Of a stretch of 30,151 bases of DNA, positions 18,708-30,151 are shown piece after piece. How positions within the stretch are numbered: position 1 is the stretch's first letter; every line of letters begins with the position of its first letter. The notes beneath the pieces were generated by a model, which was given only the letters and a program-made list of their open reading frames with translations, searched no databases and was not told where the DNA came from. The DNA is from a virus. The DNA lies in IMG/VR virus record IMGVR_UViG_3300036889_000012, positions 1 to 30,151 of that record; one strand, written 5' to 3'. Both the position numbers and the translations under genes were made by a program.

Positions 18708-20572
18708 GATCCCGATTCTCCTCCACCCATCAATTCCTTCAAAATGCTTCCAGACTCCGGAGACTTGCTCAATGCAGCGGCAGCCTTGGCCATCTTCGGC
18801 ACGACATCAGCAGTCTGCTCCTGCTGGGCCCGCTGATTGAGTTTCTGCAAAATTGCAGCGAAAGTCTTTTCGTCGTACACAACATCGACGGGAGCATTGA
18901 CTGCATCCCTTAGCGTTCTCAAAATCTGCGGAGCGTTGATTGCGTGGATGATGGTTGGGTCCATCTGAGCAACCTGTGCGGTCAACTGGAGGAATGAAGT
19001 GATCGAACGAACCGTGGTCAGACGGGTCTGGGCCTGCGCTAGGGGTCCGAGGTACTGGACCTCAACCGGACCATGTATCGATTCGAGCAGTATTTGAGGG
19101 GGAGAAGGAATTCGGCCTGCCTCAGCCTCAATCGAGTACACACGAGCGATAAGCGGATCAAACGCCTCCGATTGAAGGTTGCCCACTCGGGTTCCCAAAA
19201 TTGCGGCTTTCTCTCCCTGAAGTTCCTGCACCTGGTCGATGACCATGCGCGAGGTATTGCTTGCTCCGGCCAGTTGTGAGAATTTCTGAAACACGTCGGT
19301 ATAGAAGTGCTCATTGATAACCGCCACCACGCGGTCCTGAAACTCGATATTGAAGGGCAGGTTTTGTACACCTGTTCCATTGAGGGGCATCGGCGCCCGC
19401 GTGCGAATGTCCCCGCGATTGGATTCGATATACGTGATCCCGTTCGGATCCCGCTGAATAGGTCCACGAAGGTCGGAATAGGCTACTAGGGGCGGCTCGG
19501 CGGCACGCTGCGCTGTTACTAGATTGGTTCTGGCCATCTGGTTGATCTTGGCAATCGAAACGAACGCATCGTGGGCCGGACCTCTGCCATAGACCTCATC
19601 CGAGTTCTTTCGCCAGCGCCATGAAATCATAGGCATGGAATCGTATCCGCCCTCTTCGGCGATGACGTTCTTTGAATCCGCGAGCGCTGTAGTCATTTTG
19701 CCCGGAACGAGAATCTTCCCGCCCCTGCAATAGACCCACTCCGACTCCCAACGCTTACCCTTGGCGTCGATGCGCTGCGGTTCGTAGTCCTTGCGCGGGT
19801 AAATCGCGTGGAGTACGTCACGCTCCGAGTGCATATTCGATTCATAGTCCCGTTTGAAGTTGGGCTCGATTGAGCACATCTTATCCCAACTGAACTTCTG
19901 CTCAAGCTGGCGCAGCGTCTGCTTAAAGACGCGATAGTCCGTATCCACTTGTCCAAATTGATTTTCTGCAATGAAGCACTCGCGGAAGTGAGGAACCTGA
20001 AAAACAATTGTTCCACGTGGAACATCTTCCTCGATCACCATATGTGCTGTCCCGCACGTTGCTCCATCGGAGATGAATTCGGTCACTACATCGTAAAAGT
20101 TGCTCCGATTGAACGCCGAATACATGACCGTCTGGCAGTCCTGAAGCCACTGCTGGACCTGGGGATAGGAATCAACCCTTTCGCCGGTCCAGCTTCGCAT
20201 CTTCGACGTGCGGGGAAAGTTGAACTTACCGGGAAGCTCCAAAGCAAACCACGGCTGGTTCCTCGAGCACAAATTCCCGACCATCCCATCTCGTAGCTTG
20301 TTCCGAGCGAGCATAGCGGTATCGTCATAAACAAATTGCCCGGTCTGCTGTCCGTCCCACAGGTCACGGTCTGTGATGAACCTGCGCCCGTGGTTAACAT
20401 ACGCGATGATGTTGTCTATTGCCGGTTCCCAGAACAGCCGTTGTTCGGCAAGCACGAGCAGGTATTTCAGGCAGTCCTTCGCCTTCTGGTCATCATCCCG
20501 TTTCCCAAGTTTGGAGAGGGTTTCGCCTCGCTCTCTGGTGTAGGTCTTCGATGATCCGAAGGGATAAGTCAT
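18704..20572 (-). CDS. Portal (head-to-tail connector) protein, T7 gp8-like
   Basis: The 622-residue protein has the pattern of the podovirus head-tail connector: an N-terminal KRDDDQKAKDCLKYLLVLAEQRLFWEPAIDNI, then YDDTAMLARNKLRDGMVGNLCSRNQPWFAL (about 81-110), a DSMPMISWRWRK..DEVYGRGPAHDAF core near 313-338, and an Ala/Gln-rich helical C-terminus with LAQAQTRLTTVRSI. It forms the dodecameric ring through which DNA is packaged and ejected. It is coupled to both neighbours by ATGA overlaps. Size is in the expected range for this family (T7 gp8 about 536, BPP-1-type larger). Confidence 0.85.
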   Translation of the reverse strand: MTYPFGSSKTYTRERGETLSKLGKRDDDQKAKDCLKYLLVLAEQRLFWEPAIDNIIAYVNHGRRFITDRDLWDGQQTGQFVYDDTAMLARNKLRDGMVGNLCSRNQPWFALELPGKFNFPRTSKMRSWTGERVDSYPQVQQWLQDCQTVMYSAFNRSNFYDVVTEFISDGATCGTAHMVIEEDVPRGTIVFQVPHFRECFIAENQFGQVDTDYRVFKQTLRQLEQKFSWDKMCSIEPNFKRDYESNMHSERDVLHAIYPRKDYEPQRIDAKGKRWESEWVYCRGGKILVPGKMTTALADSKNVIAEEGGYDSMPMISWRWRKNSDEVYGRGPAHDAFVSIAKINQMARTNLVTAQRAAEPPLVAYSDLRGPIQRDPNGITYIESNRGDIRTRAPMPLNGTGVQNLPFNIEFQDRVVAVINEHFYTDVFQKFSQLAGASNTSRMVIDQVQELQGEKAAILGTRVGNLQSEAFDPLIARVYSIEAEAGRIPSPPQILLESIHGPVEVQYLGPLAQAQTRLTTVRSITSFLQLTAQVAQMDPTIIHAINAPQILRTLRDAVNAPVDVVYDEKTFAAILQKLNQRAQQEQTADVVPKMAKAAAALSKSPESGSILKELMGGGESGS

Positions 20573-24226: not shown

Positions 24227-24712
24227 TTATTTATTATTCGCAGCATCGTTTCGCTTATCTGCCGAGATTGGCGAAATGTCATCGATTGATACGCTGATTG
24301 TACGCGGATTGGCTCGCTGTGCCTTGATCGCTTCTACTACGTCGAGCATCTGTATCATACTGATTCCAGTGGCTTGCCCGCGCACTAGACGTGCCTTGTC
24401 CTCGAGGATTGCAGCCGATGTTACGCGGGCCATCAACGGCGCTTTTGTAATCTCCGCCGCTGTCAATGACTCAAGAATCCTCAGTTGCAGTGCGTCATAA
24501 ACTTCCGCCTTGGTTGTCTGGAAGTCCAGCAAGGTCGCTGGTGATCGATTGTCTAAGAAGGTGTTAAGTACACACGACACATTCTGTCGAGTGCATCCAA
24601 CCTTGCGAGCGATGTCGCTTTTGGATAGCTCGGGATACCTAAGAGCTAGCTTTCTGATCTTTGGTGCGACGCCGATCTTCCCGAGTTGAGGGGCTGTTTC
24701 GCTGGTCGCCAT
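24227..24712 (-). CDS. Terminase small subunit-like protein with HTH
   Basis: The 161-residue product has a helix-turn-helix at about residues 24-50 (LSKSDIARKVGCTRQNVSCV), then a helical region with TTKAEVYDALQLRILESL and ILEDKARLVRGQATGI, and a C-terminal tail. This arrangement (DNA-binding HTH, then an oligomerising helix with DKxRLxRGQ) is seen in many podovirus small terminase candidates. It would recognise the packaging site and recruit TerL. It is the second gene of the late operon, upstream of TerL. A regulatory HTH protein is the main alternative. Confidence 0.65.
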   Translation of the reverse strand: MATSETAPQLGKIGVAPKIRKLALRYPELSKSDIARKVGCTRQNVSCVLNTFLDNRSPATLLDFQTTKAEVYDALQLRILESLTAAEITKAPLMARVTSAAILEDKARLVRGQATGISMIQMLDVVEAIKAQRANPRTISVSIDDISPISADKRNDAANNK

Positions 24713-25180: not shown

Positions 25181-25285
25181 ATGCAGCTATTTATCGCACT
25201 TTGTGCTCCTACCCTCGCCGTGCTGTCGATCGGCGTTGCCCTCTACTGCTTCAATATCGCCCGTGGCGTGAGGCGGTGGCTATGA
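25181..25285 (+). CDS. 34-residue single-span membrane microprotein
   Basis: The ORF (MQLFIALCAPTLAVLSIGVA, then LYCFNIARGVRRWL) has one membrane span at about residues 3-24 and a basic cytoplasmic-type end (positive-inside). Its TGA overlaps the recombinase ATG as ATGA, so translation of the recombinase is probably coupled to it. The AAAGG upstream is a fair SD. The function is unknown. Confidence 0.5.
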   Translation: MQLFIALCAPTLAVLSIGVALYCFNIARGVRRWL

Positions 25286-25977
25286 CGCTCAAGGCTTTCA
25301 GCTATCTCAGAGTATCTGGCCTGTCTCAGACGGCAGGAGACGGCTTCCCACGCCAGCGCGCGGCCATTCTGGAGTATGCAGCCAAGAACGACCTTGAGAT
25401 TGTCGAGGAGTTCGCTGAGAACGGGGTGAGCGGCACAACTGACCTGGACGACAGGCCGGCGCTGGGTGCATTGCTGGCAGCGCTCGAGGCGAATGGCATC
25501 AAAACCATTGTCTGCGAGAAGATCGACCGCCTGGCTCGTGATCTTTTGATCCAGGAAACCATCATCGGCGACATGCAGCGGCACGGCTACACGCTCGTTT
25601 CAACGATGGAGCCCGACCTGTGCTCGACAGACCCCAGCCGCGTCTTCATCCGGCAGGTGTTCGGTGCCTTGGCGCAGTATGACCGGGCTACCTTGACCGC
25701 AAAGATGGCCGCCGCAAAGGTTCGCAAGCGCAAGGCGGATCCCATGTGGAGCGAGGGCAAGAAACCATATGGGATGCTTGAAGGCGAGGCTGCAATCCTG
25801 ACTTTCATGGACATGCGACGCAGGTCAATTCCGCCTACAACGTTTCAGCAGATTGCCCATGAGTTGAACTACGATAAGAAATTCGCCCGCTCCGGCAAGC
25901 CTTGGACCGTTGGCGCAGTCCACAAAATCCTGCAACGAGCGTGGCACGGACAGAAACAGCAAGAGCCGCTTCCCTAG
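25282..25977 (+). CDS. Serine recombinase (compact integrase/resolvase family)
   Basis: I start at ATG 25282 (coupled to the microprotein); an in-frame start at 25,201 would add 27 unlikely residues. The 231-residue product has the resolvase catalytic domain: YLRVSG with nucleophile Ser12 and Arg10, and EKIDRLARDLL at 79-89 (Arg83, Arg86). The catalytic domain is followed by a short segment like the 'Recombinase' domain (KKPYGMLEGE, TFQQIAHELNYD, GKPWTVGAVHKILQR). It lacks the zinc ribbon and coiled coil of large phage integrases. It should cut and rejoin DNA via a Ser-DNA linkage. Integration, resolution or inversion cannot be told apart here, and no attachment site is evident. Confidence 0.85.
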   Translation: MTLKAFSYLRVSGLSQTAGDGFPRQRAAILEYAAKNDLEIVEEFAENGVSGTTDLDDRPALGALLAALEANGIKTIVCEKIDRLARDLLIQETIIGDMQRHGYTLVSTMEPDLCSTDPSRVFIRQVFGALAQYDRATLTAKMAAAKVRKRKADPMWSEGKKPYGMLEGEAAILTFMDMRRRSIPPTTFQQIAHELNYDKKFARSGKPWTVGAVHKILQRAWHGQKQQEPLP

Positions 25978-27841: not shown

Positions 27842-28492
27842 ATGGCGAACGCATGGTTTCGTTTCTATTCCGAGTTTGAAGACGACCCCAAAGTCCAACT
27901 GATGTCCGAGGCTGACCAGCGCCGTCTCGTGCTTTTGTTCTGCCAGCGATGCAAAGAGCAAAAGCGCACCGATGTGGAGCAGTCTTTCAAGTGGCGCGTG
28001 AGCCTCGATGAGATCGCCAAAACGAAGGCCGTTTTTGTCCAAAATGGATTCATCGACGAGGAATGGAACCTGATCCACTGGGACAAACGTCAATTTCTCT
28101 CCGATTCTTCTACTGAGCGCACCAGACGCTATCGGGAACGGAAGAGAACGTCACCGGAACGTCACGATGTGACAGATGTGACAAAGCGTGACGGCCTAGA
28201 TCAGATACAGATCAGATCAGAACAGAAACAGAACAGAGGCAGATCAGACCGTGATCTGACCCCCCTCGTTTCTATTTTTTCTAAGGTACCAACCAAACCT
28301 CCCGCCCTTCCCAAAAACCGCAACGAGATGGTAGCGGCTGGGTACGCTTTTTCAAACACTCGCCCGTGCCAGATTTGCGGCGAGGAATTGCAGTGGTTCA
28401 CATCGCCCAAGGGTGGGAGCATACCAGTTCTGGCCGAGAGCGGCGCGGTGCATTTGGGCAACTGTGCCAAGATTGCGAAGGCGAACAGCTAG
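27842..28492 (+). CDS. Phage replication-initiator-like protein with C-terminal zinc motif
   Basis: ATG 27842 has GGAGAGG upstream. The N-terminal 85 residues (NAWFRFYSEFEDDPKVQLM, then LVLLFCQRCKE and LDEIAKTKAVFVQNGFID) match the winged-helix domain of phage replisome organisers. Residues 90-105 are an Arg-rich linker (TERTRRYRERKR). The linker at 117-140 is low-complexity and encoded by the iteron-like DNA repeats. The C-terminal part has C176-x2-C179 and H204/C208, a probable zinc site. It likely opens the origin and recruits helicase; no helicase is in the window. Confidence 0.65.
   Translation: MANAWFRFYSEFEDDPKVQLMSEADQRRLVLLFCQRCKEQKRTDVEQSFKWRVSLDEIAKTKAVFVQNGFIDEEWNLIHWDKRQFLSDSSTERTRRYRERKRTSPERHDVTDVTKRDGLDQIQIRSEQKQNRGRSDRDLTPLVSIFSKVPTKPPALPKNRNEMVAAGYAFSNTRPCQICGEELQWFTSPKGGSIPVLAESGAVHLGNCAKIAKANS
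28147..28286. repeat. Iterons and AT-rich tract inside the replication gene (putative origin)
   Basis: Two AACGTCAC units (28,147 and 28,158, 11-base period) are followed by two GATGTGACA units (28,166 and 28,175) and GCGTGACGG. A second set of ATCAGA/ACAGA units follows (about 28,198-28,246), ending in a dyad, CAGATCA-GACCG-TGATCTG at 28,240-28,258, and then a pyrimidine/AT tract (28,269-28,283). The arrangement, iterons followed by an AT-rich segment within the initiator gene, is that of lambda ori inside O. Confidence 0.5.
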
Positions 28493-28938: not shown

Positions 28939-29029
28939 GGCGTCGCTCTCCCTGCCTCCCCGCTCCTACCTCCCCAAACCACAACCTGTAGTGGTCCTGA
29001 AAATAATCACCACAAGTGCGCATTTTCTT

Positions 29030-29071
29030 GTTGACACGCTCGGCAACGCGTTGCTAATCTTGTCAACGTTG
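29030..29071 (+). promoter_or_regulatory. Promoter embedded in a nested palindrome
   Basis: TTGACA at 29,031 and TAATCT at 29,055 form a sigma70 promoter with an 18-base spacer. The spacer holds the perfect palindrome GCAACGCGTTGC (29,043-29,054), and around it are mirrored arms GTTGACA (29,030) and TGTCAAC (29,061), all symmetric about 29,048/29,049. A further palindrome, CAACGTTG, lies at 29,064-29,071. It controls the small-gene operon that follows. Confidence 0.65.
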
Positions 29072-29105
29072 TTAAGGGTAGCCGCTACCAGCGGATGGTG
29101 AAGCA

Positions 29106-29354
29106 ATGACTAGATATGGCAATAACGCGCGCGGCGTCCGCCAGATGATTGAGGATGACCGCCGAGAAGCCCACGCCGAAAGCATGGAGATAACTAAAAA
29201 GTCCGCCGAATGTGCTCACTGCGGGAAACGAATCGTTTGGAATGTGGCCACTCATGCTTGGGAGCATAGGCCAGCAGTTACAGGATTGAAGCCTTGTGCT
29301 TGCTATGTTTTGGGGAATTACATACTTGACTCCCTTGGAGGGATGAGTGGCTGA
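29106..29354 (+). CDS. Small zinc-binding protein (82 aa)
   Basis: The 82-residue product follows the palindromic promoter, with GGTGAAG upstream of ATG. It has a charged N-terminal helix (MIEDDRREAHAESMEITKKS) and a CAHC/CAC Cys pattern (C36, C39, then C64 and C66) with H and W between, a probable zinc site. I do not recognise the family. It overlaps the next gene by eight bases. Confidence 0.55.
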   Translation: MTRYGNNARGVRQMIEDDRREAHAESMEITKKSAECAHCGKRIVWNVATHAWEHRPAVTGLKPCACYVLGNYILDSLGGMSG

Positions 29355-29694: not shown

Positions 29695-29931
29695 ATGACT
29701 TACGACGACTGGAAACTCGAATCGCCAGAAGAGGAAGAGTACCGGCTATCCAACTGTCAACGTCGAGCCAAGTCCCGCGCTGAATGGATGGAAGAGCACG
29801 CCGATTACTTGCTGGAAGAGCGCCGCGAAGCCGAAGCCGACCACGACCGCGACTGGTATCAGGAGAACGATCCCCAGTCTTTGGTCGATTCGATCAATGC
29901 CGCCAATGCCGGTAATCCGAGGAAACCATGA
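29695..29931 (+). CDS. Small acidic protein (78 aa)
   Basis: AAAGGTGG precedes ATG 29695. The product is strongly charged and helical (ESPEEEEYRLSNCQRRAKSR, EEHADYLLEERREAEADHDR) with a possible coiled coil and a soluble C-terminus. Its TGA overlaps the next ATG. I do not recognise the family; it may be an inhibitor or adaptor protein, but nothing shows that. Confidence 0.55.
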   Translation: MTYDDWKLESPEEEEYRLSNCQRRAKSRAEWMEEHADYLLEERREAEADHDRDWYQENDPQSLVDSINAANAGNPRKP

Positions 29932-30151
29932 AGACCTACACCGACGCCGATGTGATCGCAGGACTTGCATCTCGCGTGGCTGGTTCCAGCTACCGCGCCA
30001 TCGCGGATGAACTAGGCGTGGACTTCGCGTATCTCTGCCGCGCCATCAACGGCGACATTGAGCTGCCTGAGAGCATCGCGATCGCGGCTGGATACTCAGC
30101 AATCCCACAACCCATACGCACATGGAAGCTTGTCAGGAAGGACGCAGCATG
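29928..30151 (+). CDS. HTH protein (partial; window end)
   Basis: The frame starts at ATG 29928 and is open to the window end (74 codons plus TG, so a TGA stop may follow directly). Residues about 22-45 (SYRAIADELGVDFAYLCRAI) form a helix-turn-helix; it is followed by ELPESIAIAAGYSAI, which resembles a conserved Cro/XRE-like phage HTH pattern. The gene is coupled to the acidic protein gene by ATGA. It is probably a DNA-binding regulator. Confidence 0.6.
   Translation, partial: MKTYTDADVIAGLASRVAGSSYRAIADELGVDFAYLCRAINGDIELPESIAIAAGYSAIPQPIRTWKLVRKDAA

Follow-up and report, generated by a model that had tools for sequence, protein, structure and literature searches.

Genomic Context of the Palindromic Site

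The analyzed window (30,151 bases) comprises the entire IMG/VR virus record IMGVR_UViG_3300036889_000012, in which the genome of an uncultivated phage is incompletely represented. The minus strand encodes head, portal, tail, terminase and lysis proteins. Genes for a DnaD-like replication protein and an HNH protein, together with several small ORFs, occupy the right end of the plus strand, and a serine recombinase is encoded at 25201–25977. The palindromic site described here (Table 1) is located in a 167-bp gap (28939–29105, ~0.6% of the window) between two co-directional genes. Its upstream neighbor is the HNH gene on the same strand, with the best phage match of the encoded protein (40% identity over 61% of the query) in a Tunturiibacter phage. 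The 82-aa product of the first downstream ORF has no family match above the cut-off, and searches of phage collections yielded no DNA match, as well as no protein match for the ORFs starting at 29106 and 29347.

Some other features of the window were observed along the way. An HTH-containing ORF upstream of the terminase gene (24227–24712, minus strand), which adjoins the terminase in many relatives too (~37–55% identity), probably encodes the terminase small subunit. The second-best palindrome, CGTCACGATGTGACAGATGTGACAAAGCGTGACG, accompanied by a tandem GATGTGACA, is located inside the DnaD-like gene (28160–28193) and, by analogy with lambda O, could be an origin within a replication gene. 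The window end (30150–30151) and the end of contig L004, which belong to different IMG records, are at most 1 base apart just past the HTH ORF at the right end, and this coincidence is more suggestive of a true genome terminus, of a break in a circular molecule or of a junction that varies between strains than of random ends of the assemblies.

Table 1. Coordinates of the palindromic site, its putative promoter elements and the downstream ORFs discussed in the text.
Feature	Position	Strand	Remarks
38-bp imperfect palindrome	29030–29067		Top palindrome of the window
Putative operator copy O1	29030–29047	+	GTTGACACGCTCGGCAAC (GTTG-N10-CAAC)
Putative operator copy O2	29050–29067	-	GTTGACAAGATTAGCAAC (minus-strand reading); 20 bp from O1, center to center
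Possible degenerate third copy O3	29068–29085	+	GTTGTTAAGGGTAGCCGC; 12/18 to O2, good in the left half only; weak, inferred
Perfect 12-bp core palindrome	29043–29054		GCAACGCGTTGC; O1/O2 junction
Perfect 8-bp palindrome	29064–29071		CAACGTTG; O2/O3 junction
-35 box TTGACA	29031–29036	+	Exact consensus; within O1
Candidate -10 GCTAAT	29053–29058	+	4/6; spacing 16; overlaps core; within O2
Alternative -10 TAATCT	29055–29060	+	3/6; spacing 18; abuts core; within O2
First downstream ORF	29106–29354	+	82 aa; CxxC...H...C zinc-ribbon-like pattern
Candidate Cro-like regulator ORF	29928–30149	+	At least 74 aa; probable helix-turn-helix; runs off contig end

Geometry of the Palindrome and Its Re-Parsing into Two Inverted Sites

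The top palindrome (GTTGACACGCTCGGCAACGCGTTGCTAATCTTGTCAAC) has its axis at 29048/29049, with 15 of 19 pairs being complementary. By its log-odds score (17.5 vs. 14.2 for the next one) it ranks first among all even and odd palindromes of the 30,151-base record. The initial annotation was right in placing the seven-base outer arms, GTTGACA and TGTCAAC (29061–29067), and the perfect 12-base center on one symmetry point. The end assigned to these 38 bases (29071) was four bases too far and included the additional perfect 8-mer CAACGTTG, which is the "third palindrome" said to follow directly; this 8-mer does exist, but its CAAC is common to the right outer arm. A search for the 12-base palindrome elsewhere in the phage, which had been proposed as a check, was run on the record, and GCAACGCGTTGC was found at one place only (allowing up to one mismatch).

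Two back-to-back inverted copies, O1 and O2, of one 18-bp site, GTTG-N10-CAAC, account better for the "nested palindrome." The two copies are identical at 14 of 18 positions in inverted orientation and are separated by a 2-bp gap. All occurrences of GTTG and CAAC in 29030–29071 fit a single scheme (GTTG-N10-CAAC, GC, GTTG-N10-CAAC, GTTG), and in the entire 30-kb window the GTTG-N10-CAAC pattern occurs only as O1 and O2. Read outward-in, the five half-sites are GTTGACACG, GTTGCCGAG, GTTGCTAAT, GTTGACAAG and GTTGTTAAG. Two GTTG-N10-CAAC sites within 42 bp were observed in none of 300 order-2 Markov sequences, and the tails of the five GTTG half-sites have 24 identities vs. a mean of 12.7 for random GTTG occurrences (P = 0.004), the half-site pattern and its statistics being chosen post hoc, after inspection of the site, and thus indicative only. 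Dispersed stoperator-like copies were rejected, since no further strong operator copies were found in the 30 kb.

Candidate Promoter Elements

The exact TTGACA is contained in the outer left arm, as originally described, and starts the top sigma-70-like pair of the gap, on the plus strand, i.e., in the direction of the downstream genes. On the minus strand TTGACA is mirrored, but without a good -10. The statement that the -10 abuts the center holds for TAATCT, which is a poor match, whereas the better-matching GCTAAT overlaps the core instead. A stricter consensus promoter scan listed no promoter in the 29030–29067 region and reported neither of the -10 candidates. Repeated dyad-symmetric sites overlapping both -35 and -10, as observed here, are expected of a phage repressor operator-promoter region, although with a weak -10 in this case.

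Conservation and Database Searches

The only other carrier of the full operator found in IMG/VR is IMGVR_UViG_3300048827_000074, which is 99.97% identical over 10,815 bases. Searches of IMG/VR with the full operator and with the flanking proteins (82-aa ORF, HNH, DnaD-like, HTH) yielded the near-identical contig and one distant DnaD-like relative (L057). A scan of GTDB genomes with the 82-aa ORF returned no match, and a scan with the terminase alignment returned a single MAG contig. We have also fetched 34 loci whose terminases are related (two of these loci belong to the same phage), and four contigs of 47–50 kb were read whole; no GTTG-N10-CAAC pair comparable to O1/O2 was present among them, and in the terminase relatives (52–79% identity, many of them short) these early genes had no convincing homologues. 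The bare 16-base skeleton has ten matches in IMG/VR besides the phage itself, which look like chance, because they form only 9–13 of 19 pairs and nine of the ten are within ORFs.

Candidate Regulator

A candidate regulatory gene, that of the probable helix-turn-helix protein, is the fourth ORF of the downstream cluster and is not adjacent to the palindrome. Its product matched PHROG 6223 ("transcriptional repressor," E 0.093) and a Pfam HTH family (E about 0.1), both below threshold. A single-sequence AlphaFold (AF2) model has four helices (pLDDT 64), and Foldseek retrieved with this model mostly XRE/lambda-repressor-like folds (P22 C2, P2 C, SinR, C.Kpn2I, HipB and TP901-1 CI among them), all with E ≥ 0.9 and none significant. 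These observations make the protein at most a candidate for the regulator of the palindrome.

Proposed Mechanism and Comparison with Known Systems

Overall, the 38-bp palindrome is real, and the site is probably a functional operator-promoter. We consider it fairly likely that it controls the phage gene cluster extending from 29106 to beyond 30151, via paired 18-bp sites for a dimeric HTH repressor. In this mechanism, two, perhaps three, abutting 18-bp sites in inverted orientation would each accommodate one repressor dimer, and, with O1 over the -35 and O2 over the -10, two side-by-side dimers would exclude RNA polymerase, giving a steep on/off response of the downstream operon. From helix geometry, a center-to-center distance of ~two helical turns would bring the dimers to approximately one side of the DNA, the arrangement required for cooperative contact. 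The cluster could be autoregulated, with its own small XRE/Cro-like protein, whose gene is three genes further along, serving as the repressor; alternatively, the repressor gene may be situated past the contig end. The repressor model of the initial annotation is retained in its main part, as the site is best read as an operator over the promoter and agrees with the "doubly bound" option, but a single nested 38-bp tetramer site is not the most economical parse given the two inverted 18-bp copies.

By analogy, this architecture resembles the control exerted by small HTH proteins through paired operators (phage Cro/CI; C.Esp1396I), which is an ordinary phage way to control a gene cluster and a known kind of arrangement. 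The small HTH protein C.Esp1396I binds in the form of two dimers to a 35-bp fragment that carries a pair of adjacent palindromic operators, giving a tetrameric complex (PMC4321490), on a scale similar to the 38 bp observed here. In contrast to C-protein systems, the HTH gene is fourth in the cluster, not first, and a canonical C-box (the operator of restriction-modification controller proteins) was rejected, as GACT/AGTC repeats are absent from the site and GACTNNNAGTC had no match near 29030–29085 with up to one mismatch. No restriction-modification genes were found among the neighboring proteins tested, and no defense system was convincingly recognized in the seven neighboring proteins tested.

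Phage switches with several operators (lambda OR; phi13 and TP901-1 CI operators) likewise contain recurring palindromes based on a common half-site consensus. In TP901-1 and phi13, such CI operators, with the half-site consensus AGTTCAYR, control early promoters (PMC8516035), whereas the half-site here is GTTGNYAAG, the sites almost abut and there is no divergent cI gene. A lambda-type divergent switch does not describe the locus, where the same-strand HNH gene is the upstream neighbor and no divergent cI/cro pair flanks the site. PY54 has one Cro operator, a 16-bp palindrome of the immunity region to which a small Cro binds (PMC4488713), as opposed to two or three adjacent copies and a putative Cro in our case. 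If right, the proposed interpretation would provide a control point of the early operon in an uncultivated phage together with a named testable regulator; the general understanding of repressor operators is unchanged by this site.

Alternative Interpretations

A single nested operator, with the promoter locked by one tetramer or by a pair of dimers at concentric sites (GTTGACA/TGTCAAC outer arms and the GCAACGCGTTGC core), would agree with all 15 pairs sharing one axis and with the uniqueness of the perfect 12-mer in the record. We regard it as rather unlikely: an asymmetric 18-mer present twice in inverted orientation yields a concentric 38-bp palindrome automatically, and, therefore, the nested symmetry requires no special tetramer; such copies also account for the distance of 20 bp and for a fifth half-site at 29068, and a core dimer would compete with flanking dimers for the same inner half-sites.

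Binding of a host regulator instead of a phage one, by which the phage operon would respond to host physiology, is consistent with the lack of a clear repressor gene adjoining the site and with a single site cluster of this type in 30 kb. The sequence alone cannot separate this reading from that of a phage repressor, and we hold it to be unlikely.

A chance palindrome around an ordinary promoter, with TTGACA mirrored downstream by accident, appears quite improbable. In order-1 Markov sequences, the observed score is equalled ~0.17 times per 30 kb, with at least one equally good palindrome in 13% of simulated 30-kb sequences, and the available comparison sequence is near-identical only. The chance argument is thus modest for the window as a whole, but, with the gap being such a small fraction of it, we infer a probability of roughly 0.001 for chance placement there. 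Given this intergenic position over an exact TTGACA, the palindrome is unlikely to be due to chance alone, and the repetition of half-sites, as well as the poor pairing and mostly intragenic location of the bare-skeleton matches, also stand against chance.

In a distinctly speculative variant, to which we assign little probability, the inner half-sites would be common to two mutually exclusive pairings (outer–inner 18-bp dimers vs. a central dimer on GCAACGCGTTGC), so that one or two proteins could set two alternative occupied promoter states of a compact bistable operator.

Roles as an RNA hairpin (in a leader or as a terminator following the HNH gene) or in recombination or replication are hardly credible: an interrupted stem (-12.5 kcal/mol) is possible on the strand and the phage encodes a serine recombinase, but no T-run follows the stem, folding z-scores (-1.45 and -1.92) are unremarkable, which led us to reject the hairpin or terminator and favors a DNA-level role, 3 kb separate the palindrome from the recombinase gene and there are no iterons at the site.

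parS-Like Sites in Related Phages

A perfect palindrome of the bacterial-chromosome parS type, TGTTCCACGTGGAACA, was observed inside the portal gene of the window (20009–20024). The same parS core is present at non-homologous positions in three related phages: G001, the contig of L016 (29347 and 30460), L028 (9202) and G006, the contig of L008 (4755). Including the window, this amounts to five sites vs. ~0.04 expected, by a rough estimate made without a matched-composition control. A small literature search revealed no paper describing parS of the host type in a phage. The exact 16-mer parS has at least 120 matches in IMG/VR, as compared to 11 stretches matching another 16-base pattern, and, as far as these sequence matches indicate, the phages in question may carry host ParB sites.
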